In this document: piece by piece, positions 24,232-64,000 of the stretch
Layout of the letters: every line of letters begins with the position of its first letter
Numbering within the stretch: position 1 is the first letter of the stretch
DNA from: Williamsia sp. 1138
GTDB taxonomy: Bacteria > Actinomycetota > Actinomycetes > Mycobacteriales > Mycobacteriaceae
Assembly: GCF_002095435.2 (NCBI RefSeq)
Contig: NZ_MJEJ02000040.1
Span: 62,001 to 126,000 of the forward strand
Direction: 5' to 3'
DNA length: 64,000 nucleotides
The notes under the pieces: model-generated
The model's database searches: none
What the model saw: only the letters and a program-made list of their open reading frames with translations
Told to the model about the DNA's origin: nothing
Position numbers and translations under genes: made by a program

Positions 24232-24243
24232 TCTGGACTGGCG

Positions 24244-31085: not shown

Positions 31086-31097
31086 CAGCACCCACCC

Positions 31098-31168
31098 ACA
31101 AACCCACCCGTTGCAGACAAATCCAGGGGTTCGAGAGCCCTGGGTTTGACCAGAACGGGTGGGTTTGT
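31098..31168. terminator. Nested bidirectional hairpin terminator
   Basis: The outer stem pairs 31098-31112 with 31154-31168 (15 bp, perfect). An inner stem pairs 31118-31128 with 31138-31148 (11 bp, one G-T). The element lies between accD4 and the convergent membrane protein gene and can end transcription from both sides. Confidence 0.75.
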
Positions 31169-31179
31169 TGTCACCAGGC

Positions 31180-31683: not shown

Positions 31684-31774
31684 CCGTCCTCCCGCATCGT
31701 CTTCCCGGTCAGTTACCCAGCCTCAGTGTTCCATGTCTGGGCAGCGGAAACGGCGATTAGACGGGGTCGAGCTG

Positions 31775-34700
31775 TCAGTAGCCGACAGCCCGCATCGGCG
31801 CCGGTGACCACAATCCCGAATGCGTGCTCGAACCCAGTTCGATCTGCGCGGGCTTCGCGGTTGCGATCTCGGTGAACTGCTGCAGAGAACCCCAGTCCCG
31901 TCCCCAGTCGTTCCGTAGATAGGAGGGGATGATCGTGGGCCGCAGCATGGCCTGGGTGATCCCGAGTGGACCACCCGCATCACCGGACATCCAGGTCTGG
32001 CTGTTCTGCCTCGTGGCCTGGGCGTCCGGCAGGATGCGCCACTTGGGAACCTCTGTGACGCCGTACTTGACGGCCATGGGCTGCTGACATGGGAAGACCA
32101 TGGCGGGCAACCAGTCGACGAGCACCGGATCATTGGTGCCCACAAGGTCATTGAGGGTGCGCAAGGTGGTGATGCGCGGAGGCGTCACCGCCAGCCACTG
32201 ATCTGGTGCAAGCGAGGTGTCCTTGGCGATGATCCGCACGACCGATGCGCCCGCGGGGGCGTCGGAGAGCGGGAACCTGAGATTTCGCCAGATCGGCGGG
32301 TCCCCGATGTCGATGGGTGTCATCTGGCCCATCGGTATCACGGTGTTCCCGGGTCCCGGACGGCCGAACTCGGCGATCAGTTCTTGTCCCGGCTGCACCA
32401 CGCCTTCGCCGTCGACCGCGGTGACCCGTCCGGCCGCTGACAGGGTCATCAGCGGAGCATTCGGATTGGACTCGGGCATCTGGTACCAGGAGGACGTCAG
32501 GTTGCCACCGGTCGAGCCGAAGCTGCCGAGAACCGGTGTGTCGGCGGGGTCGAGACCGAACGGCAACCGCACGGTCGAGCCGTTGACGCCGAGCGAGCCC
32601 TGCCCGCCACCGGTTCCGGCCTCGTCGGCGTCGGTCGAGTCGTCATCGGAACCGGCGCCGGTCTGGGCGGTGTTCTGCGCCGCAGCGGTGTCGCTGGACT
32701 CCGTCGCGTCGACCGAGAGGTCATTCGGCACGCCGTTGGGGGTGAACCCGGTCATGTCGGCACCTGCCAGTGCCTCACCCGGGGACAGGTCGGTCTGCCC
32801 CGCGACCGTTGCCGGTTGCAGCAAGCCCGTGTTCGGATCTGGTTCCACGAGAACGTCATTGGCGAGCGCGCAGATGTTACCGCGCAGGGCGTCGACATTG
32901 GAGTTCAGCCATGACCAGCTGTCCTTCTGCACGTACGCGGCCTTCGCGAACGATGCCATCATGAACAGCACCATCAGGCCCGACAGCACCGGCATGGGGG
33001 AGAACGCCAAGCGGTGCAGGCGCTTTGAACCCTCGGTGCGTTGATCGGCATCGACGTAGTCGTCGCGGAAGTGTTGCCACAGACCGACCAGGGTGGTGGC
33101 CACGGCGATCACCAGCACGATCCATGTGACCCGGATGCCCGCGATCTGTGGCGGCTGGTCCCACCACGGGATGCCGTAGCTGGCGACGAACCACCAGCCG
33201 TTGGTGCCTGCGAAGGACAGCGCCACGACATAGAGGACGGCGGCGGCGAAGAAGGTGCGATTACGCCTGCGTCGCAACAGGGCCGGGGCCATCATCGCAC
33301 CGGCGGCCGCCGCCAGCGCGGCGCCGATGCCGGCGTAGACACCGAGGTGGTGCGTCCACTTGGTGGGGGTGAAGGCCAGGAAGAACATGAACCCGAACAC
33401 GCCGGCGACCAGACGCCAGGTGGGTCCCTTGGCGATACCCATGGGCTTGCGGCGGCGCAGCAACATGAGCAGCACGACCATCAGGCACAAGAACGCCATG
33501 AGGATGCCGAAGCGCCTGGACAAGGTGCCATCGGCGGTCGGCAACATGAGGTAGTAGTAGCGAACCGGTTCCTGCCACCACTCGAGTGTCGGCCCGACCT
33601 CGGACGCGACCTGCGACGACGTGAGGATGGTCGAGAGTGTCTGGTCGGCGAAGATGTTGTACAACACCGCGGTTCCGGCGGCCAGGATCGGCGTCAGCAA
33701 CGGCAGCAGGCCATCTCGATGCCTACGGGCCATGATCCGGCGGAGCAGGGGACGGATGCCGGCGAGGAGCAGGGCGACAGCCATGAGGCCGCCGGGTGCC
33801 AGTGCCAGGGTGAACGCCGCGATGGTGGTCGCGAGAGCGAGCGGCAACAATCGTCCGGTGGCGATCGAGCGGTCCACCGAGACCCACGTGAGCAGGGCAC
33901 CGACCGCCAGGGCGGGCTCGGGTCGCAAACCGTTGTTGTAGGGCATCCAGATGGCCAGGAAGACGAAAGCGGCCGACCACAGCGCGGGGGTGGAATGTCG
34001 GACGGTCCGGCCGAGACGTGGGATGACCTCGCGAGAGATGAGCCACCACCCGAGCAGGCCGAGCAAGAACGCAGGCAATCGCATCCACGGGGCAGACAGG
34101 CTGACGTTCGCCATGGCCGAGATCACCTGGTAGTGCCAGCCGAAGGGATCTTGTGGGACACCGAAGTAGCGGTAATAGTTGTCGACGTATCCGGCCTCGC
34201 CCGCGATGCGGCCGACCGTGAAGTTGTAGCCGTCGTCGGAGGTGTTGGAACCCATCAACCACCAGAACGCGAGCACCCCGAAGACCACGACGTCGGAGAC
34301 GCGGATGGTCCACCACCGTGCGGGCAGGAATCGGTGGTGGCCGCGTCCGTCGCGCGCGTCGAGCAGGGCGAGAGCCACCAGCGACAGCACCGTCATCGCG
34401 ATCCCGATGACCATGGACAAGAACTTCAGGGTCGTCGGGGTGGTGACGAAGCGGGTGTCGATGGTGGCGTTGAACTCGAGTCCCGCGGGTGAGGTGTTCT
34501 CGGGCAGTTCGGTGAAGACACCCACGATCTGAGGCCGCAGGTTGGGGTCGGGTACGTCGAAGGAGAGCTGACCTTCGGAGCCACCGTCCACGATCTCGCC
34601 GGAGGCACCGTCGCCGTCGGCGTTGAAGATGATGCGGCAGTTCGGATTCGACTGCGCGCTCGCGCGATCGGCGGTGAGCAGCACGACGTCACGACCGGTG

Positions 34701-35071
34701 ACGGTGATGCTGTCGGCGGTGGCCCGGATGAACAACCCGCGTGAGGTGGCCTCGGCGCCGCCGGTGGGCAGGGTCGAGAGCAACACGCCCCCGCCGGCGG
34801 GCAGATCGGCCGCGGTTGCACACGGCACCGACACCCGCAGGTCGGTGGGCACGAACGACACCAGCGGCGCGGCGACGTTGGTGACCGAATTGTCTTGCGG
34901 CCAATTGAGTTCTGCCGTGGTCTGTTTCACCGGCATCAGCGGGCTGAGGCAGGCCAGGAGAAATCCGATGAGACCGGCGACGACCGCGACGATCTTCACG
35001 TTTCGGTAGCCGGAACCGGCGAATCCGCGGACGGATCGGTTTGTGCTGATGGTGCTTGCCTTTTCACTCAT
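31775..35071 (-). CDS. embB: Arabinosyltransferase, EmbB position
   Basis: 1098 residues. It is a GT-C enzyme that transfers Araf from DPA to build arabinan on the outer membrane face; Emb proteins are ethambutol targets. The DDX motif is TSDDGYNFTVGRIA with Asp279/Asp280. The proline motif FTPTKWTHHLG lies mid-protein. About 13 membrane segments precede a large C-terminal carbohydrate-binding region ending near the stop. By position this is the third gene of the embC-embA-embB order. The residue that aligns with M. tuberculosis EmbB Met306 is Val286 here. Its ATG overlaps the embA stop by 8 nt. Naming is by order, not by phylogeny. Confidence 0.92.
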   Translation of the reverse strand: MSEKASTISTNRSVRGFAGSGYRNVKIVAVVAGLIGFLLACLSPLMPVKQTTAELNWPQDNSVTNVAAPLVSFVPTDLRVSVPCATAADLPAGGGVLLSTLPTGGAEATSRGLFIRATADSITVTGRDVVLLTADRASAQSNPNCRIIFNADGDGASGEIVDGGSEGQLSFDVPDPNLRPQIVGVFTELPENTSPAGLEFNATIDTRFVTTPTTLKFLSMVIGIAMTVLSLVALALLDARDGRGHHRFLPARWWTIRVSDVVVFGVLAFWWLMGSNTSDDGYNFTVGRIAGEAGYVDNYYRYFGVPQDPFGWHYQVISAMANVSLSAPWMRLPAFLLGLLGWWLISREVIPRLGRTVRHSTPALWSAAFVFLAIWMPYNNGLRPEPALAVGALLTWVSVDRSIATGRLLPLALATTIAAFTLALAPGGLMAVALLLAGIRPLLRRIMARRHRDGLLPLLTPILAAGTAVLYNIFADQTLSTILTSSQVASEVGPTLEWWQEPVRYYYLMLPTADGTLSRRFGILMAFLCLMVVLLMLLRRRKPMGIAKGPTWRLVAGVFGFMFFLAFTPTKWTHHLGVYAGIGAALAAAAGAMMAPALLRRRRNRTFFAAAVLYVVALSFAGTNGWWFVASYGIPWWDQPPQIAGIRVTWIVLVIAVATTLVGLWQHFRDDYVDADQRTEGSKRLHRLAFSPMPVLSGLMVLFMMASFAKAAYVQKDSWSWLNSNVDALRGNICALANDVLVEPDPNTGLLQPATVAGQTDLSPGEALAGADMTGFTPNGVPNDLSVDATESSDTAAAQNTAQTGAGSDDDSTDADEAGTGGGQGSLGVNGSTVRLPFGLDPADTPVLGSFGSTGGNLTSSWYQMPESNPNAPLMTLSAAGRVTAVDGEGVVQPGQELIAEFGRPGPGNTVIPMGQMTPIDIGDPPIWRNLRFPLSDAPAGASVVRIIAKDTSLAPDQWLAVTPPRITTLRTLNDLVGTNDPVLVDWLPAMVFPCQQPMAVKYGVTEVPKWRILPDAQATRQNSQTWMSGDAGGPLGITQAMLRPTIIPSYLRNDWGRDWGSLQQFTEIATAKPAQIELGSSTHSGLWSPAPMRAVGY

Positions 35072-38000
35072 TGCTCTGCGGCACCACTCTCAGGGAGCCG
35101 GTACGGGCCCATCCCCATTTGCTCTCGGTGCCGGTGGTGATCGTCGCGGATGGTGCGTCGGGCACCAGCGGGGTCAGTCGTTCGAGTGAGCCCCAGTCCC
35201 TGAACCAGTCGTCCTTCAGGTAGGTGGCGACAGTGTTCGCGCTGGTCACCGATTCGCTCACAGCGAGCACGCCGCCGTCCTCGGCTGCTTGCCAGGTCTT
35301 GGACTGCGATGCCGCGGTGGTGCGGTCCGGCAGGATCCGCCACTGCGGGATCTCGGCGACACCATCGGTGATCGCGAACGGGCGCTGACAAGGGAATTGG
35401 CTCCCGACGCTGAGGTCGATGAGGGTCGGTGCCTGCGATCCGACGACCTCCTGCAACGTCTGGAGTTGTGGCGCCCGCGGTGGGGTGATCGCCAGCCACT
35501 GCTTCGGGTTGACGTTGTTGTCCTTGGCGATGATCCGCATGGCGGTGGCGCCGGCGGGGACCTGATCCATCGGGACCCGCAGGTTGCGCCACGGCCGGTT
35601 CGGCTTGTCCGGACCCGGGTCGATCGGCCGGATCAACGGTCCGAGCTCGGTGAAGGAGCCGTCCGGTCCGTTCGCGCCGAACTGCACCTGGAGCTGTTGA
35701 CCGAACGTCGACACCCCTTCGTCGTTGAGGGTGAAGACCGGCCCGGCGACACTGAACACCAGGAGCGGTGAGGCGTCGCGGGCAGGCAGCTCGTACCAGC
35801 CGGTCTCGAGGTTCGCCTCACCGCTGTCGTAGCCGTAGCTGCCCAGCACCGGGGTGGTCTCGGGATCCAGACCGAAGGGCAATGCGACCGTGGACCCGTT
35901 GACGGTTTCGGGGCCGGTGCCCCCGGTGATGCCAGCGCCCGCACCGGAAACCACGAACGGCTTGTTGAAGCTGGCCGAGACGTTCATCTGGCCCGGCCGG
36001 GCCGATCCGGCCTCGGGAGTCAGATCCGGTGCGACGCCGTCGGGGGTGAACCCGACCGGGTCGTCGCCCGCGAGGGCCTGCGACGCGGTGGCCCCACCCG
36101 CAGGGGTCAGCGTGCCCTGGTTCGGATCCGGTTCCACGAGAACGGCATCGGCCATTGCGCAGCTGTTGCCGCGGAGGGTGTCGAGGTTGGCACCCAGCAC
36201 GGTGTACGCCGGGTAGCGGGCCAGCGCGGCCTTGGCGAAGACCGCGAGCATGCAGATCACCATGAAGCCTGCGATCAACGCGATCGGCGAGGACGCGACG
36301 AACAGACGCCGCCGATCGGAGCGGGCGGCGCGGTCCGAGCCGCCGCCGGTCCCGGCGTCTGTGTCCGGGCCGGAGTCGCTGCGGCTGTGTGTGAGTCCCT
36401 TGTTCTCGACGTAGTCCAGACGCAGGTGCTGCCACACCGCGACAGCGCCGGCGATCACAGCGAGGATGAGGAAGAGCGTCGACACCTCCCGTCCCGCGAT
36501 CACCGGAGCCTTGTCGAACCAGGAGATCCCGAAGTCGAATGCCCAGGGCCAGGCGTTCTCTCCGGCCATGGCGGCGGCGAGGGCGAACATCAGGCCCGCC
36601 ACGAACACCGAGAGGTTCCGCGTGGAACGGGCCGCCGACTGGGCGACTGCGATGGTCGCCGTGGCTGCGAGTGCGGCAGCGAATCCGGCGAAGATGCCGA
36701 AGTGGATGGTCCACTTGGTGGGGGTGAACATCAGCAGCAGCAGCGTGATCAGAGTGGCGCCGAGCACTCGCCACACCGGACCCGGATCGATCGCGCGGAT
36801 CTTGCTGCGCCGCAACATGACGGCGAGGGTCACGAACACCGAGGCGAGGAGCAGCAGAACCGGGACGCGCCGGGTCAGGGCGCCGTCGTCGGTGGTGACG
36901 GTGAGGAAGTAGTACCGCAGGTACTCCTGCCACCACGAGATGGTCGGTCCGACGATGTAGCGGGTGCGCACGGCGTCGAACACGGTGGAGAGGGTCTGGT
37001 CGCGGAAGACGACCAAAACGACGAGGGACGCGGCAGCCACCGAGGGCGCCATCAGGGACGCGAGCCGGAAGTAGCGGACGCGGGGTTCGGTGGTGGGGGA
37101 GGGGTCTCCGTGGCGATCCTCGCGACTGCGTTCGAGAAGAATTCTGAGCATCGGCCGGGCGCCGACGATCAGCACCGCGAGGGCGATGACGCCTTGGGGG
37201 GCGAGCGCGAGTGTGAATCCGGCCACGAGCGCGGCCAGTGCCGCAGGCAGTAGTCGTCGTGTCGCGATGGCGTGCTCGACGGCCCACCAGGTCAGGAGCG
37301 ATCCCAGGATGATGATCGATTCGCTGCGCAGCCCGCTGGCGAACGGGATCCAGAAGGCCGTGAACACGGCGGCGGCGGCCCAGACGGACCAGGCGCTGCG
37401 CCGGACACCGGCGCCGAGCCGCGGCAGCAGCACCCGCGAGAGGATGAACCAGGACGCGAGGCCGGCGAGCAGGGACGGGATGTGCATCCAGAGCCCCGAC
37501 GCGGACACCTTCGACCACGCGGCCAGGAAGGAGTAGTACCAGTCGAACGGTGCTTCGGCGATGCCGTAGAAGCGGTAGTAGTTCGCCAGATAGCCTGCGC
37601 CGTCAGAGGCACGGCCCATGTTGAGGATGTACCCGTCGTCGGGCGATGCGGCACCGAGGAAGTGCCAGATCAGCAGGACGGCGGTGACAGCGAGGTCGGT
37701 GATGCGTGGTCGCAGGATCTGCTTCCAGGAGCGTTTACCGACGAGCCGGTGGTACCCACCGATCCGGTCGAGGAGGGCAAGGCTCACCAAGGACGTGAGC
37801 ACCGCGATGACGCCCACGATCATGGCGAGGAGTTTCACGACGGACGGCGAGTTCGCGAACCTGGTGTCGACGACGGTGGTCACCGAGAGTCCCTGCTGCG
37901 CAGCAGCATCGACCTCGGCGGGTGACAGCGAGGTGAAGATTCCGTCGAACTGCGGGCGCTGATCGATGCCGAGCGTGCTCGCCGGTCCCAGTCCGACGAA

Positions 38001-38459
38001 TTCGGCACCGACACCGCCGGGGCCTGACCAGATGTGGAGCTCGCGGCACTGCGGCGATCCCACCTCGGCCCGTGGCGCACTGACGGCGAGTTCGTTGCGG
38101 AAGATCACCGAGACCGCGGACGGGGAGGCACCCACGACCAGAGCGTTCTGGTTGAAGCCCTGAGCTGCCTGCGGCATGGTCGCCAGGACCAGCCCGCCTT
38201 CGTCGCCGAGGGTGTCTATCAGCGCGCAGGGAATTCTTGCATCGAACGTCCGGGGGGTCTGGGCGATGAGCGGCGCGGTGACCGATGCGGTGTCACCAGA
38301 GAGGGCTTGCCCCTGCGGCCAGTTGATCGTGGAGGTCGACTGGGTGACGGGCAACAACGGGGTGATCGCACACAAGACGATTCCCACCAGACCCGCGATA
38401 ATTGCGGCCCAACGGACAGTCCCCGCACGGGGGATGTGAGAGGACACAGGCACGAGCAA
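35064..38459 (-). CDS. embA: Arabinosyltransferase, EmbA position
   Basis: 1131 residues, second of three Emb paralogues. The DDX motif is SPDDGYILNMGRAS, and FTPTKWTIHFG is the proline motif. An extra polar, Asp/Arg-rich insertion (around SGPDTDAGTGGGSDRAARSDRRR) precedes the last membrane helix. The C-terminal carbohydrate-binding domain has VNGSTVALPFGLDP, as in the other two. In mycobacteria EmbA works with EmbB as a heterodimer on the 3,5-branched hexa-arabinofuranosyl motif of arabinogalactan. TTG 38459 is the first start in frame; GTG 38453 is an alternative and neither has a clear ribosome site. The gap to embC is 100 bp. Confidence 0.92.
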   Translation of the reverse strand: MLVPVSSHIPRAGTVRWAAIIAGLVGIVLCAITPLLPVTQSTSTINWPQGQALSGDTASVTAPLIAQTPRTFDARIPCALIDTLGDEGGLVLATMPQAAQGFNQNALVVGASPSAVSVIFRNELAVSAPRAEVGSPQCRELHIWSGPGGVGAEFVGLGPASTLGIDQRPQFDGIFTSLSPAEVDAAAQQGLSVTTVVDTRFANSPSVVKLLAMIVGVIAVLTSLVSLALLDRIGGYHRLVGKRSWKQILRPRITDLAVTAVLLIWHFLGAASPDDGYILNMGRASDGAGYLANYYRFYGIAEAPFDWYYSFLAAWSKVSASGLWMHIPSLLAGLASWFILSRVLLPRLGAGVRRSAWSVWAAAAVFTAFWIPFASGLRSESIIILGSLLTWWAVEHAIATRRLLPAALAALVAGFTLALAPQGVIALAVLIVGARPMLRILLERSREDRHGDPSPTTEPRVRYFRLASLMAPSVAAASLVVLVVFRDQTLSTVFDAVRTRYIVGPTISWWQEYLRYYFLTVTTDDGALTRRVPVLLLLASVFVTLAVMLRRSKIRAIDPGPVWRVLGATLITLLLLMFTPTKWTIHFGIFAGFAAALAATATIAVAQSAARSTRNLSVFVAGLMFALAAAMAGENAWPWAFDFGISWFDKAPVIAGREVSTLFLILAVIAGAVAVWQHLRLDYVENKGLTHSRSDSGPDTDAGTGGGSDRAARSDRRRLFVASSPIALIAGFMVICMLAVFAKAALARYPAYTVLGANLDTLRGNSCAMADAVLVEPDPNQGTLTPAGGATASQALAGDDPVGFTPDGVAPDLTPEAGSARPGQMNVSASFNKPFVVSGAGAGITGGTGPETVNGSTVALPFGLDPETTPVLGSYGYDSGEANLETGWYELPARDASPLLVFSVAGPVFTLNDEGVSTFGQQLQVQFGANGPDGSFTELGPLIRPIDPGPDKPNRPWRNLRVPMDQVPAGATAMRIIAKDNNVNPKQWLAITPPRAPQLQTLQEVVGSQAPTLIDLSVGSQFPCQRPFAITDGVAEIPQWRILPDRTTAASQSKTWQAAEDGGVLAVSESVTSANTVATYLKDDWFRDWGSLERLTPLVPDAPSATITTGTESKWGWARTGSLRVVPQSNE

Positions 38460-38559
38460 CGATGGTATTGCACCGACCTGAGAGTTCTTACCTGCCCCGA
38501 GCGTGCGAGGAGATCGCGTGCTCTGCTCACGTCGCGGGCCAGGTGAGCGGCGCCTGGAC

Positions 38560-41500
38560 TCAGTACCGGATCGGTGCCGGACTCCACAGACCGGAACGGG
38601 TGGCCTTGCCGAGGTCGAGCTCCGCGACCTCCGCGGGCTCGCCGTAGGGCTCGTAGCTCACCAGTGAGCCCCAGTCCCGGCCGATGTCACCTTCCAGATA
38701 AGAGGGCACGGTCGTCTTCTCGAGGGCCACCTCGATCCAGCCGAGTGGCCCACCACCGAAGGCGTCCTGCCAGGCACCGACGGCCGCAGACAGGTCCGCA
38801 CCGGGCGCGATGCGCCATTGCGGGATCTCTGCGACCCCGTTGAGGTGGTCGAACGGTCGCTGGCACGGGAATGCCAGACCACTGGTCCAGTCGATCTGGA
38901 CCGGGTCGGTGCTGCCGACCATGGTCTGCAGGGTCTGCAGTCGCGGCGACCGGGGCGGGGTGAGGCCGATGAAACTGTCCTGGGCGAGGTTCTCGTCCTT
39001 GGCGACGATGCGGATCGCGGTGGTGTCGGCGGGGAACGAGCTGCGGTAGGTCCGCAGGTCGCGCCACGACGGGCGCGGGCCCGGGTCGATCATGTCGACC
39101 TCGCCGGCCACCTGGAAGTCCTCGTTCGTCGATCCCGAACCGGTCGAGTACTCCATCGTGACGTTCTCGATGTCGAACTGACCGGCCACGGCCATCGTCA
39201 CCAACGGGGTGTCCGCGGCCTTCGGCGGCAGGCGGTACCAGGACGAGGTCAGGTAGGCGGGGAACTGGTTGTCCTGGGAGTAACTACCGAGTACGGGGGT
39301 CAGTGCGGGATCGAGGCCGAAGGGGAGCTTCGCGGTGCTGCCGTTGATCCCGGCCTGATCGGTCTCGCCGCCGCCGGTGCCGCCCGCGTTGGAGTTGAGG
39401 ACGTCGGGTGAGATCGCGACATTGCCGCCGAGCACACCGAGACTGCCGGCACTGGCCGTCGAATCGAGGGTCAGCGGCAGGCCGTTCGGAGTGAAACCGG
39501 AGGTGGGCGTGGCGTCAGCGCCCGGATCGGCCGGTCCGATGAGGCCACCGACGATGTTGCCGTCGACAGGGGTGAGGATGTCGGCGGAGGGGTCGGGCTC
39601 GACCAGGACCTTCTCGGCCATCCCGCAGGTGTCGCCCTGCAGAGCGGCGACGTTGGAGGTGGGAATCGAGAAGGATCCACTCTGTTGCACTCCGGCACCG
39701 ACGGCGGTGCCGATCTGGAACACGACGAGGAACGCGCCCGCGACAGCCAGGGGTGCGGTGGCGAGGGTGCTGAACCAGCGGCGCCGCGAGGTGGTGCCCG
39801 GTTCGGCGGGGGTATCGGGCTTGAAGGGTTCTCGGAAGTGGAACCAGAAGGCCACGAGCAGCGCGGCCACACAGAGGTAGAGCAGGGCGCTGCCGAGGGC
39901 GACCCCGAAGCGAACCGGTAGGGCACCCCACGGCATGCCCCAGTTGGAGTAGTAGAAGAAGGCGTTCGGTGCGGTGAAGGCGAGACCGGTGATGAACAGC
40001 ACCAGCGCGATGAACAGCATCCGGTTGCGCCGGGCGTGCATCGCCTCCGCGCTCACCGCGATCGCCGCGATGGCCGCCAGCGCTGCGGCGAGGCCCGCGA
40101 AGACACCGAACTGGTGGGTCCACTTGGTCGGGGTGAACATCATGAAGATCAGTGACGCGAACGTGATGCCGACGATGCGCCGGGACGGGCCGAGGGCGGT
40201 TCCGGGGATGCGACTCTTGCGGATCAGCATCGCGCCCGAGACGACCAGGCCCACCAGCATCGCGAGGACGGCGAATCGCCGCGAGACCGATCCGTTGGCG
40301 GAGAACTCGAAAAGAGCTGAGTAACGGTCGATCTCGTTGTACCAGTGCAGCGAGGGTCCGAGCGCGGACTTCATACGCGTCGACTGGGTGAAGGCGGCGA
40401 GGGTCAGGTCGGAGAACACGACGAAGATCACGAAGGTGCCGGCAGCAAGGACCGGCGCGAGCATCGCCAGGTAGCTCTTCGCGTCGGCGCCGATGGCTCT
40501 GGCCCGTTTGATCAGCGCCATCACCATCGGCCGGGCACCGGCGATGAGCGCCGCGACGGCCATCAGGCCGGTGGGGCCGGCAGCCAGGCTGAAAGCGCCG
40601 ATGGTGCAGGCCACCGCGGCAGGCAAGGTTCTGCCGGTGGCGATCGCCCGCTCCACAGAGCACCACGTCAGCAGCGCGCCGAGGCAGATGATCGGCTCAG
40701 GACGCAGGCCGTTGTTGAACGGGAACCAGGAGGCCAGGAACACGAACGCGGCCGTCCAGGGCACGATGCGGTTGACGGTGGCGGCTCGGCCGAGCCGGGG
40801 CAGTACCTCGTGGGAGATGATGAGCCACACCAGGATTCCGCAGGCCAGAGCGGGCAGTCGCATCCACGGGCTTGCCGTGGTGACGTGTGCGAGCCAGCCG
40901 AACACCTGGTAGTACCAGCCGAAGGGCGCCTCGGGGGCGCCGTACCAGCGGTAGTAGTTGGCCGTGTAATCGGCGTGCTCGGCCACCCGCGACATCGTCA
41001 GGATGTAGCCGTCGTCGGACGTGTTCGGGCCGACGATGTGCCAGATCAGCAGGGCGCCGATGACGACGGCGTCGCGGGCGTTGAACTTCCACCAGCGCGC
41101 CGGCAGGAAGCGGCGGTGCTTGCGACCGTCCGTACCGTCGAGGACCGCGAGCGCACCCAGCGAGATGATGGTGCACACCACTCCGACGGCGATGGCCAGC
41201 CACTTCAGCACGGTCGGGGCGGTGCTGTATCGGTCGTCGATCGTGGCGTGGGCTTCCAGACCCGGAATGGATGCGGCATCTCCGGTCAGATCTGTGTAGA
41301 TCCCGGTGAGTTGGGGGCGCTGGTCACCGTCGGTGATCTCGCCGACAACGGGTTCGCCCTCGGAATTGGTCAGGCCCACGAACTCGGCGCGCACCGACGT
41401 CGCGGTGGCCGTGACGACGATTTCCTGGCAGTCCTGGTCCTCCATCTGCGCGAGGGTGGCCATGGCGACCGGGGTGTTGCGGACCACGACCTCCACGGAC

Positions 41501-41910
41501 TGTCGGTCGAGCGCATCGGTCGCCTGGCCGGATTTACGAACGAACAAGCCGCGGGCGACCGCCTTTTCGGCTTCCTTCGGCAGGGTCGAGACCAGCACTG
41601 TCTGTCCCGGCGCCGTCAACTGCCTGACCGCCGAACAGGGCACAGAGATCTCGAGGTCCACGGGCACATAGGAGACGAGTGGCGAGAGGACCGACTGCAG
41701 CTTGTCCTGCTGCGGCCAGTTCAGCTCGGCGGTGGTCTGATTGACGGGCAGCAGCGGTGTCGCCAAGGCGAGGAAGAGGCCGATCAGGCCGGTGACGATC
41801 GCGGCGATCTTCGCAAATCGGACCCGGTCCCCGCCGGAGGGCGGCTGGTTGGATCCGCTGGATCGCGGCCGAGTCGTTCCAGTCGCGTTGTCAACGGCGT
41901 CAGCAGGCAC
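38560..41910 (-). CDS. embC: Arabinosyltransferase, EmbC position
   Basis: 1116 residues, first Emb gene of the minus-strand operon. The DDX motif TSDDGYILTMSRVA places Asp299/Asp300 and Met306 at the same numbers as in M. tuberculosis EmbB. The proline motif is FTPTKWTHQFG. The C-terminal domain carries NGSTAKLPFGLDP and an Asn/Gly-rich loop. In mycobacteria EmbC extends the arabinan of lipoarabinomannan; the assignment here is by gene order. The start is GTG 41910, with a TAGCAT -10 box 8 nt upstream (41919-41924, minus strand), so a leaderless mRNA is likely. It is divergent from aroQ. Confidence 0.92.
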   Translation of the reverse strand: MPADAVDNATGTTRPRSSGSNQPPSGGDRVRFAKIAAIVTGLIGLFLALATPLLPVNQTTAELNWPQQDKLQSVLSPLVSYVPVDLEISVPCSAVRQLTAPGQTVLVSTLPKEAEKAVARGLFVRKSGQATDALDRQSVEVVVRNTPVAMATLAQMEDQDCQEIVVTATATSVRAEFVGLTNSEGEPVVGEITDGDQRPQLTGIYTDLTGDAASIPGLEAHATIDDRYSTAPTVLKWLAIAVGVVCTIISLGALAVLDGTDGRKHRRFLPARWWKFNARDAVVIGALLIWHIVGPNTSDDGYILTMSRVAEHADYTANYYRWYGAPEAPFGWYYQVFGWLAHVTTASPWMRLPALACGILVWLIISHEVLPRLGRAATVNRIVPWTAAFVFLASWFPFNNGLRPEPIICLGALLTWCSVERAIATGRTLPAAVACTIGAFSLAAGPTGLMAVAALIAGARPMVMALIKRARAIGADAKSYLAMLAPVLAAGTFVIFVVFSDLTLAAFTQSTRMKSALGPSLHWYNEIDRYSALFEFSANGSVSRRFAVLAMLVGLVVSGAMLIRKSRIPGTALGPSRRIVGITFASLIFMMFTPTKWTHQFGVFAGLAAALAAIAAIAVSAEAMHARRNRMLFIALVLFITGLAFTAPNAFFYYSNWGMPWGALPVRFGVALGSALLYLCVAALLVAFWFHFREPFKPDTPAEPGTTSRRRWFSTLATAPLAVAGAFLVVFQIGTAVGAGVQQSGSFSIPTSNVAALQGDTCGMAEKVLVEPDPSADILTPVDGNIVGGLIGPADPGADATPTSGFTPNGLPLTLDSTASAGSLGVLGGNVAISPDVLNSNAGGTGGGETDQAGINGSTAKLPFGLDPALTPVLGSYSQDNQFPAYLTSSWYRLPPKAADTPLVTMAVAGQFDIENVTMEYSTGSGSTNEDFQVAGEVDMIDPGPRPSWRDLRTYRSSFPADTTAIRIVAKDENLAQDSFIGLTPPRSPRLQTLQTMVGSTDPVQIDWTSGLAFPCQRPFDHLNGVAEIPQWRIAPGADLSAAVGAWQDAFGGGPLGWIEVALEKTTVPSYLEGDIGRDWGSLVSYEPYGEPAEVAELDLGKATRSGLWSPAPIRY

Positions 41911-57663: not shown

Positions 57664-57736
57664 TCCATGACGGGCGGCGCCTGATCCGACCCCGAGCTGG
57701 CAAGATGGCCACCAACCCGTCGAGGAGGGGAATCAG

Positions 57737-58087
57737 ATGGCAGGACATCGGATCTTCAGCACCAGCTTGGCCAGTATCTACCCGCACTACGTGGCCAAGG
57801 CCGAGCGCAAAGACCACACGAGGGACGAAGTCGACCAGGTCGTCTGTTGGCTGACCGGCTACGACGCCGACGGGATACAGCAGGCGATCGACGAAGAGAT
57901 CGATCTGCAGACCTTCTTCGCGCAAGCACCTGCTTTCAACCCCAGCGCAGAACTCATCAGGGGTGTGATCTGCGGACACCGCGTCGAGGACATCGAGGAC
58001 CCGCTGATGCAGAAGATCCGCTACATGGACAAACTCGTCGACGACGTCGCCAGGGGCAAGAAGATGAGCTCGATCCTGCGGGGCTGA
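57737..58087 (+). CDS. DUF2200 family protein
   Basis: 116 residues; GAGGAGGGG lies just before ATG 57737. It starts with HRIFSTSLASIYPHYVAKAERKDHTRDEVDQVVCWLTGY, the DUF2200 signature, and ends with DPLMQKIRYMDKLVDDVARGKKMSSIL. It covers the full family length. It is a small helical protein, no function known, and it is sporadic across bacteria. It is convergent with the N-hydroxylase gene. Confidence 0.9.
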   Translation: MAGHRIFSTSLASIYPHYVAKAERKDHTRDEVDQVVCWLTGYDADGIQQAIDEEIDLQTFFAQAPAFNPSAELIRGVICGHRVEDIEDPLMQKIRYMDKLVDDVARGKKMSSILRG

Positions 58088-58131
58088 CGTCGGCGCGGCT
58101 GCGGGACCGATGTCACCGAACGCCGCGTCGG

Positions 58132-59409
58132 TCAGTCCTGTGGAGCCCCGACGATCGAATCGACGATGTCGGCAGATCGGATCGCCAGGTTCGACAGCAG
58201 TGTCGCGGTGAGTCCGTGCGAATGTTCCACACCGCCGTTCAGGTACACGTTGCCCTCGTGGGCGGTGGGTCGCCGGATGCGATAGTCCCGCGCGACCTGG
58301 GGCAGTCCTGAGTCGTCGAAGCAGTATTCCTTCTCGGGTTCGGCCAGTAGGTCACGCAGGTCGATCGAACGAAAGCCCGTGGCGTACACCACCGCATCCG
58401 CGGTGAGGGTCTGGGTGGTGGTCGTCGGAAGGTGATTGATCGTGACCCGGACGCCGTCGCTGGTCTCTTCGGTTTTCTCCGAATCCAGACGCGAGGCACC
58501 GTGGACGAACAACCGGCGGTTGCCCTGAACCTTCTCCTGGTATTCGCGGGCATACAACTCGGCGATGACCTCGGAGTCGACGGCGGAGTAGTTGGTGCTC
58601 CGGTGGTAGTCCAGCAACCGCTGGCGGACCTCGATGGGGGCCTCGTGGAAGTCGTCGACCGCCTCAGGGTCGAACACCCGGTTCGCGTAGGGGCTGTCGT
58701 CGGCGGGCGTGTACCCGTATTTACCGAAGACCGCATGCACCTGTGCGTCGGGGTAGGCGTCGTGCAGGTACGTGGTGATCTCCGCGGCGCTCTGCCCAGC
58801 ACCGACGACCACGAATCGATGATGGGTCAGTTCGGGGAGCTCCTCGAGCTTTCCGAGCAGACCATGGCTGTGCCACTGCCGAACCGATGGTGAGACCTGT
58901 TCGGGTAGCACGGCACTGATGCCCCCACCCACCACCACGTTGCGCGCACGGACGGTGCTCTCGGATCCCGACTGGTCTCTGGTGTGGACGAGGAACTCGT
59001 CGCCGACGGCTTCGACCTGCGTCACCGAGGTGTCGTAGGTGACCTTGTCCTCGACCTGCCCGGCCGCCCAGCCCAGATAGTCCGAGAACTCGGCCCGCGA
59101 TGGGAAGAACGTCTGGTGGTTGATGAAGTCGACCAGTCGGCCCCGCGTGCACAGGTAGTTGATGAAGGTGAAACGACTCTGCGGGTTTCGCAGGGTGACA
59201 AGATCTTTGAGGAAGGAAACCTGCATCTGGGCACCCGGGAGCAGCATGTCAGGATGCCACGCGAATGAGTCCTTGTTGTCGTAGAAGTGTGCGCGGAGTG
59301 GTTCCGCGGGGTGCGTCTCGTTGTGCTCGGCGACTGTGATGGCCAGGGCGAGATTGCTGGGGCCGAAACCGATCCCGAGGAGGTCTACGGGTGAAGTGTC
59401 GAGCGACAT
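58132..59409 (-). CDS. N-hydroxylating flavin monooxygenase (ornithine/lysine type)
   Basis: 425 residues. Class B flavoprotein that N-hydroxylates the side-chain amine of ornithine, lysine or a diamine, the first step to hydroxamate siderophores. The FAD motif is LGIGFGPSNLALAI near residues 11-24. MQVSFLKDLVTLRNPQSRFTF is the substrate-binding block. The NADPH motif is VVGAGQSAAEITTYLH near 203-218. The DAVVYATGFRS motif and the C-terminal HGLTATLLSN are typical. It resembles ornithine hydroxylases such as GorA of Gordonia and MbtG. It is last of a three-gene operon with an N-acyltransferase and an MFS exporter. No siderophore NRPS or NIS synthetase is in the window. Confidence 0.92.
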   Translation of the reverse strand: MSLDTSPVDLLGIGFGPSNLALAITVAEHNETHPAEPLRAHFYDNKDSFAWHPDMLLPGAQMQVSFLKDLVTLRNPQSRFTFINYLCTRGRLVDFINHQTFFPSRAEFSDYLGWAAGQVEDKVTYDTSVTQVEAVGDEFLVHTRDQSGSESTVRARNVVVGGGISAVLPEQVSPSVRQWHSHGLLGKLEELPELTHHRFVVVGAGQSAAEITTYLHDAYPDAQVHAVFGKYGYTPADDSPYANRVFDPEAVDDFHEAPIEVRQRLLDYHRSTNYSAVDSEVIAELYAREYQEKVQGNRRLFVHGASRLDSEKTEETSDGVRVTINHLPTTTTQTLTADAVVYATGFRSIDLRDLLAEPEKEYCFDDSGLPQVARDYRIRRPTAHEGNVYLNGGVEHSHGLTATLLSNLAIRSADIVDSIVGAPQD

Positions 59410-59461
59410 GCTGTTCAGCCCTTCGGAGAAAGAACGAGTGGGGAGTGCGCTGATGTGTCGG

Positions 59462-60268
59462 TCAGCGTGCGAGCGCGGCCTCGGTCATCCGCTGCAGATA
59501 GCGGTGATTGAGCCTGGCCCTCGAGATGAGCACCACGAAGTCAGCCATGTCGAAGTCCGAGTCGTAGGACGGTGGACCGCACACAGCAGCCCCGATGCGC
59601 ATGCAGCCCTGCACCATCGGGGGGATCTTCACGCGACCTGGATCGGCGATGTCATCGAGCCCTCGACCATCGACGCTGACGGGGTTCTTCGGAGTCATGC
59701 GCAGGTCGGGATCGGAAAGGTTGAGGCCGTAGGCAAAGTCCCGGACCCTGCGGACCAGTGAGCCGCGGGGCCCGCCGTCCTCCATACGGACCGAGGCACA
59801 TCCGATGGCGTGCTCATGACCGGTGAGCTCCTGGTACTTCAGGACTCCGGCCCAGAGCAAACCCATCACCGCTCCGCTGCGGTGTTCGGAATGGACGGCG
59901 GCGCGGCCCAACTCGACGAGGTTGGGCCTCATGGCGTCGAAACCCTCACTGAACTCGAAGATCGTATCGGTGAAGTAACCACCCGCTGCCACGGCGCCGT
60001 GCGGAGGCAGGAGCCGGAAGGTGCCGACCACCTCCCCCGAGGACTCCGCGCGGGCCACCATGTGGTCGCAGTGACTGTCGAATTGGTCGATGTCGATCAT
60101 CTCGCCGGTGTGTTCGCCGCGCACCGCGTTGGGCAGGGTGGCCCCCATCTCGTCGGCAAACAGTTTGTAGCGCAGACGTTCTGCGTGTTCGATGTCGACG
60201 GGGTCGGTGGTCAGGCTGATGGAATACCCGTTTTCAGTGGCTGCGGGAATGAGCGGGGTGATCGTCAT
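59462..60268 (-). CDS. GNAT-fold N-acyltransferase (OlsB/autoinducer-synthase-like)
   Basis: 268 residues from ATG 60268; GAAGGAG lies 9 nt upstream, so the longer open frame to 60406 is rejected. The N-terminal pattern AERLRYKLFADEMGA, then VARAESSGEVVGTFRLLPP and LVELGRAAVHSEHRSGAVMGLLWAGV, resembles the Acetyltransf_5 group. That group holds ornithine-lipid OlsB enzymes and is related to acyl-homoserine-lactone synthases. It probably moves an acyl group from ACP or CoA to an amine. Beside an amine hydroxylase it may acylate a hydroxylamine to a hydroxamate. Its first 35 nt overlap the end of the MFS gene. Confidence 0.8.
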   Translation of the reverse strand: MTITPLIPAATENGYSISLTTDPVDIEHAERLRYKLFADEMGATLPNAVRGEHTGEMIDIDQFDSHCDHMVARAESSGEVVGTFRLLPPHGAVAAGGYFTDTIFEFSEGFDAMRPNLVELGRAAVHSEHRSGAVMGLLWAGVLKYQELTGHEHAIGCASVRMEDGGPRGSLVRRVRDFAYGLNLSDPDLRMTPKNPVSVDGRGLDDIADPGRVKIPPMVQGCMRIGAAVCGPPSYDSDFDMADFVVLISRARLNHRYLQRMTEAALAR

Positions 60269-61886
60269 GGATGTGCACTCCTTCGGGGGCTGTGGCTGCG
60301 GATCGTTGGCGATCGGCACGGATGAGGCCGTAGACGGCGAACGTGAACACGGTCGCGGCAGCGGCTGCCGCGAGCAGAGCCGCCTGCAATCCCGCCGCGG
60401 ACGCATCGCGGACCAGTCGGGTGATCTCGGACAGTGCGGCGTTGTACTGGTCCGGGATGAACGAGAGGATCTGGAGGCCGGCGCCGGAACCCAGACCGTC
60501 GGTGATGGCGGCAGACTCCGCGGGCGGGACGTCGACGGGAACGCCCCCGACCGTCAGTGAGGCCAGATCATCCTTGGCGCTCGACGTGGCGAAGTGGGTG
60601 AACAAGGCTCCCATGCCCGCTATCCCGATGACGGTGCCGATCTGCCTCGCGGTACTGACGACGCCGGTCGCCATCCCGGCGTCGGCTTCGCGGACGAACG
60701 TCAGGGCCGCGTCCGAGGCGATGGCGCTCATCATTCCGACTCCCAGGCCGGCGACGACCATCCCCGTGATGAAGTGTGTCCACCCGGTGTCGGCGGAGAT
60801 TCCCGTCATGGCCCAGAGTCCCGCCGCGATGAGCGCGGTCGAGAGCGGCACCACCTGATGCATCGGTAGCTTGCGTGTGACGATCATCCCCACCGGCGCA
60901 CCGACCACACATGCGATCGTCAGCGGCAGCGCCCGGACCCCGGCCTCGAACGGGGTGAACTCCAACGTGTTCATGAAGTACAGGGCCAGGTAATTGGTTG
61001 CGGCGATGAGGGTGCCGGAGGTGATGAATGCCGCGAGCGAGACGCCCGCGAATCCCGGCCTGCGCACCACCGACAGGTCCATCAGCGGATCACTCACGCG
61101 CAGTTCCCACAGCACGAATGCAACGGCAAACAACGCGGCGAGGGCGAACAACCCGAGGATCAGCGGCGAGGTCCAGCCTTTGGCGTTTCCTTCGATGATT
61201 GCGTACACCGCGGTCACCAAGGTGATGCTGAGGGTGACGGTACCCAGGACGTCCACCCGGCGGGTCGTGTCGCCCAGTGATTCCTCGACCCGCACGAGCG
61301 CGACCACCAGTGCAACCGCGCCGATCGGGATGTTCACGAAGAAGATCGATGGCCAGCCGAACGCGTCCACGAGTGCGCCGCCGAGGAGTGGCCCGGCGGC
61401 GCTGCCTGCGCCCATCACGGCTCCGTAGACGGCGATCGCGGTGGAGCGTCCCTTGCCCACGGGGTAGACGGCCGCGATCATCGGCAGCGAGACACCCAGC
61501 ATGATGGCACCGCCGAGGCCCTGCACCACGCGCACCGCGTCGAGGGTGGTGATGTTGCCCGCCATTGCACAACCGATCGAGGCGGCCACGAAGAGTGCGA
61601 GACCACTGACGTACATTCGCTTGCGGCCCAAGCGATCTCCGAGAGTCGCCGCGGTGAGCAGGAACGCGGCCATGGGTAGGGCGTAGCCGTCGACCACCCA
61701 CTGCAGACCGCTGAGGTCCGCCGACAGGTCGGACTGGATGTCGGCGAGCGCCGCCGAGACGATGGTCATGTCGAGGAGCAACATGAAGACGCCGAGGCAC
61801 ACCACGGTCAGGGTGGTGCGGGCGTGTGGAGCGCGGGCGCCCAGCGTGGTTGCCGACGTGGTCTGTTCCGGGGCGCGGTGACTCAC
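60234..61886 (-). CDS. MFS multidrug/siderophore exporter, DHA2 (14-TM) type
   Basis: 550 residues from GTG 61886. It has fourteen predicted membrane helices. Motif A is DRLGRKRMYVSGLALFV between helices 2 and 3, and the motif C region GAVMGAGSAAGPLLGGALVDAFGWPSIFFVNIPIGA is typical of DHA2 drug:H+ antiporters. An outside loop (TVGGVPVDVPPAESAAITDGL) precedes the last helix, as in EmrB-like proteins. It lies first in the operon with the acyltransferase and N-hydroxylase and overlaps the acyltransferase by 35 nt. Export of the product of those two enzymes is therefore likely. Confidence 0.92.
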   Translation of the reverse strand: MSHRAPEQTTSATTLGARAPHARTTLTVVCLGVFMLLLDMTIVSAALADIQSDLSADLSGLQWVVDGYALPMAAFLLTAATLGDRLGRKRMYVSGLALFVAASIGCAMAGNITTLDAVRVVQGLGGAIMLGVSLPMIAAVYPVGKGRSTAIAVYGAVMGAGSAAGPLLGGALVDAFGWPSIFFVNIPIGAVALVVALVRVEESLGDTTRRVDVLGTVTLSITLVTAVYAIIEGNAKGWTSPLILGLFALAALFAVAFVLWELRVSDPLMDLSVVRRPGFAGVSLAAFITSGTLIAATNYLALYFMNTLEFTPFEAGVRALPLTIACVVGAPVGMIVTRKLPMHQVVPLSTALIAAGLWAMTGISADTGWTHFITGMVVAGLGVGMMSAIASDAALTFVREADAGMATGVVSTARQIGTVIGIAGMGALFTHFATSSAKDDLASLTVGGVPVDVPPAESAAITDGLGSGAGLQILSFIPDQYNAALSEITRLVRDASAAGLQAALLAAAAAATVFTFAVYGLIRADRQRSAATAPEGVHIHDDHPAHSRSH

Positions 61887-62213
61887 CGGCCGCTCGTTCC
61901 CGCGGCTACCGCCCGGTCATCAAGCGTCGGGTCGTAGATCTCGAAGAAATCGGTCAATTCGGCCACCCCCCACTTGAATTGGCGTCGGTCGCACGGTGCG
62001 TACTTCGTGGTGCTAGGAATATCCGGTCCTGAGGCATTCGAAACCCTGGAGATATCAGATGGGTCGGCAGCGGAAGTTGCCGTGAATTACTTACCGGTCA
62101 TCCGTACGAGTGCGTCGTGCACCGGCGTGAACTGCGAAGATGGCGAACGGCTTCCGTGCGAGGAGTTTTCCGAACTCGCGAAATAGAGGTCGATTTTTCG
62201 CATTTTCCGGAAA
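61887..62213. other. 327-bp intergenic region, AT-richer, with a doubtful small ORF
   Basis: This should hold the promoter of the MFS operon. GC is visibly lower than in the flanks. A plus-strand frame (61974-62186, or GTG 62082-62186) encodes a Cys-containing peptide (RTSASCTGVNC) with only a faint likeness to DUF397. I do not call it a gene. No canonical IdeR/DmdR iron box was found by eye. Confidence 0.35.
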
Positions 62214-63407
62214 CTAACGCATGATCCTGTTCATGAACCTGGTGGCGTCGTCGACAGATGTCGCCATCGTCGTGAAGTGGTCGTCTTCCGGATAGACGTG
62301 GACTTCCACCGGTTCGCGGTTGGCCACCATTTCGGAGACCAACGAGGCGGGGAACGGGATCGGCACATCGATGTCTTGCAGCCCGTGCCCCAGGAACACC
62401 GGCCGGTCGTAGCCGCTTGCGGGCGTCTCCATGTGCCGGCGCAGGACGCCGTAGGCATCGGGCAGCGATGACACCGGCTTCATGAACGCCGCCCGCAGGT
62501 CGCGGCCGTCCATGAGGTTCTTGAACGAGGTAAGGCACATCGTCTCCGCGGTATCGACGAGCTGGCGGCCGAGCGGGGTGAGCAGACCGTCCACATCCAG
62601 ATCTCGCCGCGCGTCGCGTAGGCCGGCCACGATGTACATCGCGTAGGTGGTCAGACCGGCGGGGAGGATCACCGGCGGAAACCCGGGTCCGCCGAACTGC
62701 ACGAGCCACTCGATGTTCGCGGGGGTCCCTGTTCCTACGACGCCGCGGTAGTCGAGTCCCGATCCGGCATCGAGTTCGGTGGCGCGCCTGCCCGCGTTCA
62801 GCGCCGCTCCGGCACCCTGGGACTGACCGGTGATGGCATATTTCGGTGACAGGGGCAGCCCCATCTGATGGGCGGCCTTGACCGAGTCGATGACCGAACT
62901 CGCCTGCACCCGTGAGTTCAGGTAACTCATCAGCCCGGGTGTGCCCTGGCCCGCGTAGTCGGTGCCCACGATGGCGTATCCCTGGGCGAGCCAGTGCTCG
63001 AGCAACGCCAACACTCGCGGTCCGAGTCGGTTCGCGGACGGCGTGCAGTCGTCGCCCAGTCCGACGGTGCCGTGGGCCCACGCGATGACCGGCCAGCCCC
63101 CTGGCGGCGCCTGACCCCGGGGGACATAGACGAAAGCGGTGCTGGTCGCCCGATCGGTGTGCTGGTTGGGCGTGGAGTAGAGGATTCGGAAAGCGTCCCC
63201 GACCGGTGCCTGCACCAACTCTGGATCCAGAGGCACCGATCGGATCAGGGTGCCGGGCACATCGGGGATCGGGCCGTCGTACTGTCGGGCGTCGAGTCCG
63301 GACCACCGTGGCTGATCGTCGACAACGGGTGCGGGCGCGGCCAGAGCGGTGACAGGCACCGTCAGCAGTAACAGCGCCAGTGCGAGAACGAGAGCCCGGG
63401 CACCCAC
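62214..63407 (-). CDS. Secreted lipase (LIP family)
   Basis: 397 residues from GTG 63407. A signal peptide ends near ALAAP (about residue 24). Alpha/beta hydrolase of the secretory lipase family (PF03583): WAHGTVGLGDDCTPS oxyanion region, GTDYAGQGTPG, nucleophile Ser in GQSQGAGAA (about 195), Asp in GLQDIDVP and His in PEDDHFT near the C terminus. Mycolic actinomycetes have several such extracellular triacylglycerol lipases. A TAACGT -10 box (63414-63419, minus strand) lies 6 nt before the start. It is divergent from gtrA and probably monocistronic. Confidence 0.92.
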   Translation of the reverse strand: MGARALVLALALLLLTVPVTALAAPAPVVDDQPRWSGLDARQYDGPIPDVPGTLIRSVPLDPELVQAPVGDAFRILYSTPNQHTDRATSTAFVYVPRGQAPPGGWPVIAWAHGTVGLGDDCTPSANRLGPRVLALLEHWLAQGYAIVGTDYAGQGTPGLMSYLNSRVQASSVIDSVKAAHQMGLPLSPKYAITGQSQGAGAALNAGRRATELDAGSGLDYRGVVGTGTPANIEWLVQFGGPGFPPVILPAGLTTYAMYIVAGLRDARRDLDVDGLLTPLGRQLVDTAETMCLTSFKNLMDGRDLRAAFMKPVSSLPDAYGVLRRHMETPASGYDRPVFLGHGLQDIDVPIPFPASLVSEMVANREPVEVHVYPEDDHFTTMATSVDDATRFMNRIMR

Positions 63408-63461
63408 ATCTCGACGTTAGGCGATCGAAGCACCGTACGTAAGGCCTCCGAGTGCAGAAGC

Positions 63462-63467
63462 TAGGGT
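63462..63467 (+). promoter_or_regulatory. Candidate -10 box of the GtrA gene (leaderless)
   Basis: TAGGGT ends 6 nt before GTG 63474. The lipase -10 box faces the other way at 63414-63419, giving compact divergent promoters in a 66-bp gap. Confidence 0.45.
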
Positions 63468-63473
63468 GTCGGG

Positions 63474-63968
63474 GTGTCAGATGAGCCGGCGGAGGAACGC
63501 CGAACGCATGAGCAGTTCGGGTCGGCCCATGCGCCGATGCCGATCGAACTGCCGCTCGACGATCAAGAGGCCTCCACCGACGTCGACTTGAAGACCCAGC
63601 TCATCCGGTTCGTCATCACCGGAGCCGGTTCGGGCATTCTCGACTTCGGGCTGACGCTGCTGCTGCAATACGTCTTCGGCGCCCCTGAATGGGCAGCCAA
63701 GGCGGTTGGTTTCGTCTGCGGAACGACGATGGCCTACCTCATCAATCGGCGCTGGACGTTCCGTGCGGAGCCGAGCGCCGCACGTTTCTTCGCTGTCGCA
63801 CTGCTCTATCTGGTGACGTTTGCGGTGCAGGTCGGCATCTACACGGGCCTGTCGCGGCTCTGGGATGAGCAGATCCACTGGAGCCTGCTCGCCTTTGTGA
63901 TCGCTCAGGGTACTGCGACGGTCATCAATTTCGTGGTCCAGCGAGCGGTCATCTTCAAGATCCGGTAG
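63474..63968 (+). CDS. GtrA family membrane protein (Rv3789-like)
   Basis: 164 residues from GTG 63474. A polar N-terminal tail of about 40 residues is followed by four membrane helices typical of GtrA: IRFVITGAGSGILDFGLTLLL, AAKAVGFVCGTTMAYLINRRWTF, FFAVALLYLVTFAVQ and LLAFVIAQGTATVINFVVQRAVIF. The NRRWTF motif is a GtrA hallmark. M. tuberculosis Rv3789 lies next to dprE1 and has been linked to arabinan synthesis, either in decaprenyl-phospho-arabinose translocation or as an AftA partner. Here it is about 14 kb from dprE1. Confidence 0.88.
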   Translation: MSDEPAEERRTHEQFGSAHAPMPIELPLDDQEASTDVDLKTQLIRFVITGAGSGILDFGLTLLLQYVFGAPEWAAKAVGFVCGTTMAYLINRRWTFRAEPSAARFFAVALLYLVTFAVQVGIYTGLSRLWDEQIHWSLLAFVIAQGTATVINFVVQRAVIFKIR

Positions 63969-63970
63969 TC

Positions 63971-64000
63971 CGGTCTTGGTGGGTTCTGGTGAGGGCGACC
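63971..64000. repeat. Second copy of the dispersed hairpin element (truncated)
   Basis: The sequence right after the GtrA stop shares TCTTGGTGGGTTCTGG and a nearby CGACC with the hairpin at 8677-8743. The window ends before a right arm could appear. Confidence 0.5.

Follow-up and report, generated by a model that had tools for sequence, protein, structure and literature searches.

A short, self-contained biosynthetic route to an exported lipo-hydroxamate is proposed for a three-gene cassette of the soil actinobacterium Williamsia sp. 1138, which lies in a stretch of 64,000 nucleotides (nt) of contig NZ_MJEJ02000040.1 (positions 62,001 to 126,000; hereafter the window). The cassette encodes an exporter of the major facilitator superfamily (MFS), an N-acyltransferase of the GNAT family and a flavin-dependent N-monooxygenase (NMO). 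As judged from the sequences, the three proteins may form a complete pathway independent of nonribosomal peptide synthetases (NRPS) and of NRPS-independent siderophore (NIS) synthetases, in which L-ornithine would be hydroxylated at N5, N-acylated with a long chain and secreted as a lipo-hydroxamate. This reading is preferred tentatively, at only slightly below an even chance. An earlier sequence-only reading of the window had suggested a minimal pathway of this kind, and this is still the best reading, as no NRPS or NIS gene was found beside the cassette. The features are the following.

58132..59409, minus strand: NMO gene, flavin-dependent N-monooxygenase of the L-ornithine N5-hydroxylase type (P0001, 425 amino acids; assigned by PF13434, PDB matches and motifs).
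59462..60268, minus strand: GNAT gene, OlsB-sister N-acyltransferase (P0002, 268 amino acids; PF13444).
60234..61886, minus strand: MFS gene, DHA2/EmrB-type exporter with a GTG start (P0003, 550 amino acids; PF07690, TIGR00711).
61883..61966, minus strand: possible leader open reading frame of 27 codons with a GTG start, whose TGA stop overlaps the MFS start codon.

The three genes are consecutive on the minus strand and are transcribed in the order MFS-GNAT-NMO. The 3' end of the MFS gene overlaps the GNAT gene by exactly 35 nt and a gap of 52 nt separates GNAT from NMO; reading frames, coordinates and families all agree with the operon described in the sequence-only reading. Motifs resembling ribosome-binding sites, read by eye from the sequence, precede GNAT (AAGGAG) and NMO (GAAGGG). 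The frame of the leader and its overlapping stop are kept in all four Williamsia cassettes, with one whole-codon difference in length, and the leader may couple translation to that of the MFS gene. Scans for Rfam families (57700-64000) and for consensus promoters and terminators (57700-62300) returned no match.

A scan of P0002 against a collection of genomes from 84,980 species recovered 22 loci, three from Williamsia and 19 from mycobacteria, and MFS, GNAT and NMO stand in the same order and on the same strand in all 22, as the predicted conserved co-occurrence would have it; the loci were recovered with GNAT peptides, which selects for close relatives but not for the presence of MFS and NMO. 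Because the gene order is the same at 22/22 related loci and dN/dS is low (about 0.08-0.15 for all three genes, window versus three other Williamsia copies), the cassette is not a chance arrangement. A search across Gordonia and relatives had been suggested; the nearest relatives are Williamsia (the W. soli GNAT is 90% identical) and not Gordonia. The mycobacterial GNAT gene runs into the NMO frame: the shared stretch measures 14 nt in 17 of 19 loci and, with the computed NMO start, 35 and 65 nt in the remaining two. The distribution within Williamsia is patchy (4 of 9 genomes), and among the five cassette-free genomes the flanking lipase has a match of 51% in G001 and of only 38% in the other four, so that no empty site could be defined. 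An order-level draw of 397 genomes (E <=1e-70) gave six matches: four cassette copies with MFS and NMO next to them, one in the own genome and three in mycobacteria, and two sequences of the OlsB type with a PlsC-like neighbour. At phylum level (396 genomes, E <=1e-66) there were nine matches and only two genomes, the own one and G051, with a cassette copy; both carry an OlsB-type paralogue besides. Divergent copies, such as that of Tsukamurella, score below these two thresholds.

The monooxygenase P0001 matches PF13434 with 349 bits and, among PDB entries, 9nns (442 bits), KtzI (340 bits) and PvdA (240 bits) best. It carries the canonical motifs for FAD (GIGFGPSN, canonical GXGXXN) and NADPH (GAGQSAAE, canonical GXGQSA), the substrate-end residues K68, N243 and S406, and an NYS loop at 273-275. 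FLKD, GQSAAE, NYS and LLSN are found in 33 of 33 cassette NMO rows (near-copies included), and N243 in 32 of the 33, which are all the rows whose motif was displayed. According to PMC12498188, TheA binds ornithine by its amino acid end through the corresponding K74, N250 and S412, and the NYS loop at the FAD is common to ornithine NMOs; the K, N and S residues are conserved in lysine NMOs too, so that alone they do not exclude lysine. The same source describes the FAD and NADPH motifs of the MbtG/MbsG/NbtG clade of lysine N6-monooxygenases as deviating from the canonical ones; P0001, compared with this clade by description only, does not share the deviation. Ornithine and lysine NMOs are distinguishable by sequence, according to PMC7347517. 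Taken together, the cassette NMO appears to be of the ornithine type and is a predicted L-ornithine N-hydroxylase. Lysine, considered as a substrate because 9nns is called MbtG, was set aside, the MbtG/MbsG/NbtG clade being described with other motifs. PDB 9nns itself, named MbtG in its entry, has canonical NMO motifs and groups with KtzI (94/89), and the name may be misleading. For the NMO tree, 37 rows were picked out of 65 collected sequences and three PDB chains; in it the cassette NMOs of Williamsia and mycobacteria join an NMO of Rhizobium (96/92), and the Tsukamurella enzyme falls outside.

The acyltransferase P0002 scores 96 bits with PF13444 and has a core common to the OlsB-type rows. 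In the GNAT tree, 24 NMO-partnered rows form a clade separate from 15 OlsB-type rows (support 100/99.9), and an approximately unbiased (AU) test argues against grouping the Tsukamurella GNAT with the OlsB type (p 0.036). By this tree the cassette GNAT is the sister of actinobacterial OlsB. A PlsC/OlsA-like neighbour is present at 22 of 23 OlsB-type loci and an NMO at none of them; no PlsC-like match was obtained at the 22 cassette loci. Two NCBIfam equivalog models of OlsB give P0002 102.5 and 100.8 bits, below their cut-offs of 320 and 350; the OlsB of actinobacteria may likewise escape these models. A second GNAT of the own genome (contig C48; L014, 8839-10472) adjoins a PlsC-like acyltransferase, with genes for an electron-transfer flavoprotein, a cysteine desulfurase and an mnmA-like protein alongside, and 21 further OlsB-type loci of this kind were found. 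This pair, which resembles Rv3027c-Rv3026c, is likely the OlsB-OlsA pair by which mycolic-acid bacteria make ornithine lipid. In Streptomyces, SCO0921/SCO0920 (OlsB/OlsA) make lyso-ornithine and ornithine lipid experimentally (PMC7937720).

Kinship with OlsB leaves two sites of acylation to be weighed. If the regiochemistry of OlsB were kept, the product would be N-alpha-acyl-N5-hydroxyornithine, a lyso-ornithine lipid with a free hydroxylamine that, once exported, might act as a surfactant or as an antioxidant; the sister position of the GNAT and its shared conserved core fit this picture. A free hydroxylamine is chemically labile, however, and I58, F99, E163, R168, S234 and M241 are fixed in 42-44 of 44 NMO-partnered GNAT rows (near-copies included) and each found in at most one of 15 OlsB-type rows, hinting at changed specificity. 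N-alpha-acylation is the main rival, and an unlikely one, and we think that N5-acyl-N5-hydroxyornithine is the most likely product.

The fold comparison, taken from the VIA-align list, from which further related families may be missing, agrees with the OlsB/LuxI-like acyltransferase that had been predicted, an OlsB/LuxI/FeeM-type fold being matched. The fold of acyl-homoserine lactone and N-acyl amino acid synthases is among the best matches, the closest including LasI, BjaI, RpaI and TofI, which is what would be expected if the GNAT made a LuxI-like acyl signal and the NMO tailored it. FeeM and acetyltransferases score equal to these autoinducer synthases, however; the LuxI profile PF00765 gives 15.1 bits, below its 24-bit cut-off, and no LuxR-type protein is present among the seven neighbours scanned. 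The signalling role suggested earlier is not supported, and this reading is very improbable. P0002 does score over the cut-off of the FeeM-type family PF21926, and its fold is also that of this family.

The exporter P0003 matches PF07690 with 156 bits and TIGR00711 with 239.9 bits, over the cut-off of 230.2, which places it in the DHA2/EmrB family. Its resemblance to the drug-efflux models TcmA (224 bits) and LfrA (166 bits), both far below the cut-offs of 999 and 825, together with the patchy distribution of the cassette, could be taken for a detoxification or resistance system in which a toxic amine is altered by the two enzymes, NMO and GNAT, and then removed from the cell by the DHA2 pump. 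We consider this quite improbable, for both enzymes resemble ornithine-biosynthetic ones and a related enzyme pair occurs in Tsukamurella with an exporter of the MMPL family.

This variant is found in Tsukamurella tyrosinosolvens NZ_LR134457.1 (L098, 4661-8945), where NMO, GNAT and MMPL form one run with 4-nt overlaps, the MMPL protein giving a Pfam match of 253 bits. The same arrangement occurs in two further genomes of one genus (2 of 397), their GNATs being 96% and 72% alike. Compared with the window proteins, the Tsukamurella GNAT and NMO are 39% and 43% identical. As they stand beside an MMPL gene, the enzyme pair is kept and the exporter family differs; mycobacterial MMPL proteins export lipids and siderophores. 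The sequence NZ_LR134457.1 is labelled a plasmid, yet it has dapB and a thymidylate synthase gene and is perhaps chromosomal.

The cassette might instead supply a building block in trans to an NRPS siderophore encoded elsewhere, as is reportedly the case for rhodochelin. The own genome offers the means, with 48 condensation-domain matches on several contigs and two further NMOs, both on contig C45 only and about 1 and 6 kb from NRPS condensation domains. At about 7.6-41 kb of contig C17 of the same genome (G000), a giant NRPS with numerous condensation domains is encoded in one open frame of 11,298 codons. The exporter gene in 22 of 22 cassettes speaks against supply in trans, and so does the NRPS search, for which four own-genome proteins with condensation domains were used as queries (E up to 1e-10): it found no match in any of the 22 cassette neighbourhoods or at the Tsukamurella locus, its lone weak match (61 bits, window 22.5-23.8 kb) being an AMP-binding protein. 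Moreover, the number of NMOs is three in every Williamsia genome with the cassette (4 of 4) and still two in every one that lacks it (5 of 5), which marks the cassette NMO as an extra one; in cassette-free G001, both NMOs group with one of the two NRPS-side types. Among mycobacteria at E <=1e-60, seven cassette-bearing genomes show only the cassette NMO and two cassette-free ones none, a distant mbtG being invisible at that threshold. Supply in trans is accordingly unlikely, and no siderophore cluster elsewhere that uses these genes has been found so far, the two other NMOs of the genome adjoining NRPS genes. The statement that no synthetase lies nearby holds for NRPS and for NIS, no IucA/IucC being found in the own genome; it does not hold for a Pks13-like synthase (a ketoacyl-synthase/acyltransferase/thioesterase protein) encoded about 29 kb away in the window.

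In mycobacteria the cassette occupies a recurrent site. A DEAD-box helicase gene (named from motifs) and an acyltransferase-3 gene (named from Pfam) immediately precede it in 18 of 19 loci, and downstream lie a cytochrome P450 gene (18/19) and a TetR-type gene (15/19); L041 is a cassette at another site. These flanking genes resemble Rv1253, Rv1254, Rv1256c and Rv1255c of M. tuberculosis. Acyltransferase-3 was present in 115 of 118 mycobacterial genomes searched. Behind it, an MFS gene was found in 5, a TetR-type gene in 19 and neither within 1.5 kb in 6 of 30 fetched loci, which are the best-scoring of the 115 and biased to relatives of the query; since either MFS or TetR-type gene may follow acyltransferase-3, the cassette is present in some genomes and missing from others at one and the same site. 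Acyltransferase-3 was considered as a fourth pathway gene and rejected as not core, being near-universal and not among the neighbour families of the Williamsia cassettes.

Iron regulation, named for checking in the sequence-only reading, found no backing: ahead of the window cassette there is no IdeR-like box, the best site having 10 of 19 mismatches. This negative is weak and lacks a positive control in this genus, because a box with <=5 mismatches was likewise missing from L016 and L017, the NRPS/NMO stretches of the own genome. It counts against the proposed pathway, and the missing control leaves iron regulation compatible with supply in trans. In the mycobacterial loci L033 (11999-12017), L036 and L037, an IdeR-like box with 2-4 mismatches was seen after NMO, in front of a SIP gene. 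SIP also occurs behind acyltransferase-3 without the cassette (L076, L078, L080, L082, L083 and L084), and three of these loci have a box of <=4 mismatches, L076 (2657), L082 (2658) and L084 (2669); an iron link through SIP was consequently discarded, SIP and box belonging to the locus and not to the cassette. Four M. asiaticum loci have a site with 6 mismatches ahead of the GNAT, no better than would be expected by chance. A siderophore role for the cassette is not supported.

In the proposed pathway, the NMO would use O2 and NADPH to hydroxylate free L-ornithine at the side-chain nitrogen, as the residues of the enzyme suggest. The GNAT would then move a fatty acyl group from acyl carrier protein or coenzyme A onto N5-hydroxyornithine, most likely at the hydroxylamine. 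The resulting N5-acyl-N5-hydroxyornithine would be a bidentate amphiphile with a single chain, and the MFS protein (MMPL in Tsukamurella) would export it. The order NMO before GNAT is likelier because the conserved NMO residues bind the free alpha-amino acid end, and an ornithine-type NMO next to an OlsB-sister GNAT makes ornithine the likely amine. Long-chain acylation is plausible from kinship alone. Metal binding, surfactant action and membrane activity would all fit as the role of such a product.

Several points weigh against this scheme besides the iron scan and the selection of the 22 loci by their GNAT. The scheme is read from the genes, and its product is predicted. OlsB acylates the alpha amine, and the switch to a hydroxylamine is assumed; the fold list ties with plain acetyltransferases, for instance SACOL1063. 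The Rhizobium NMO with which the cassette NMOs group adjoins genes for MbtH, salicylate synthase and an AMP-binding protein, so an NRPS ancestry is likely. The Tsukamurella NMO, placed outside the cassette group by the tree, has NYA/NYG in place of NYS, so the pairing of GNAT and NMO may have arisen twice; its partner GNAT sits on a long branch, with the AU value only just below 0.05.

Two other parts of the window were noted. A DUF2200 protein (171 bits) is encoded at 57737-58087 by a gene in convergent orientation to that of the NMO, and the families clustered in the mycobacterial cassette neighbourhoods did not include DUF2200. The region 22306-41910, about 16-36 kb from the cassette, encodes an AMP-binding protein, the Pks13-like synthase, a carboxyltransferase and EmbC-type arabinosyltransferases, and we take it to be an ordinary mycolate and cell-envelope locus (fadD32-pks13-accD4-emb).

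Ornithine lipids, hydroxamate building blocks and short mycobacterial N-acyl amino acid pathways come closest among what is known. The L-ornithine N5-monooxygenases of siderophore clusters, KtzI, PvdA, SidA and TheA, share family, cofactor motifs and ornithine-binding residues with the cassette NMO, whereas beside the latter no NRPS was found and the partner is an OlsB-type GNAT. The mycobactin step of MbtG and MbtK follows the same logic of side-chain N-hydroxylation and long-chain acylation; it gives N6-acyl-N6-hydroxylysine, and MbtK is an acyltransferase of another type. FeeM, an N-acyl amino acid synthase with 12% identity to the cassette GNAT, is specific for tyrosine, and we know of no NMO associated with it. 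The actinobacterial OlsB-OlsA operon SCO0921-SCO0920 (PMC7937720) has a GNAT of the same family in the sister clade, with ornithine N-acylation expected; the cassette GNAT, in contrast, is partnered by NMO and exporter and not by a PlsC-like OlsA, and its product is expected to be secreted and N-hydroxylated. Unlike the MbtG/MbsG/NbtG clade as outlined in PMC12498188, P0001 keeps canonical motifs, and the cassette has no NRPS scaffold. The mycobacterial tyzACB and trzAS clusters for N-acyl oxazolones are likewise short pathways of mycolic-acid bacteria, with an amino acid N-acyltransferase and a redox enzyme; they differ in using tyrosine or tryptophan, a ThiF-like cyclase and a flavin oxidase, and the part of PMC12856293 available mentions no NMO or exporter gene. 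In titles and abstract openings of the literature, no description of the gene trio or of an N-acyl-N-hydroxyornithine lipid was found, and the predicted kind of product seems not to have been described. With confidence somewhat short of even, the cassette may represent an undescribed class, a two-enzyme, synthetase-free route to a secreted long-chain N-acyl-N-hydroxyornithine, in which an OlsB paralogue has swapped OlsA for an ornithine N-hydroxylase and MFS and MMPL exporters are interchangeable.

The proposal involves two enzymes and one substrate guess and is directly testable. The cassette pathway is present in several mycobacteria, and 75-90% of the lipid features detected in M. tuberculosis have no database match, according to PMC12856293. 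If true, hydroxamate lipids would be made without a synthetase scaffold and be missed by genome-mining rules based on NRPS and NIS, and a membrane-lipid enzyme would have been recruited for a secreted metabolite by the change of one partner gene.

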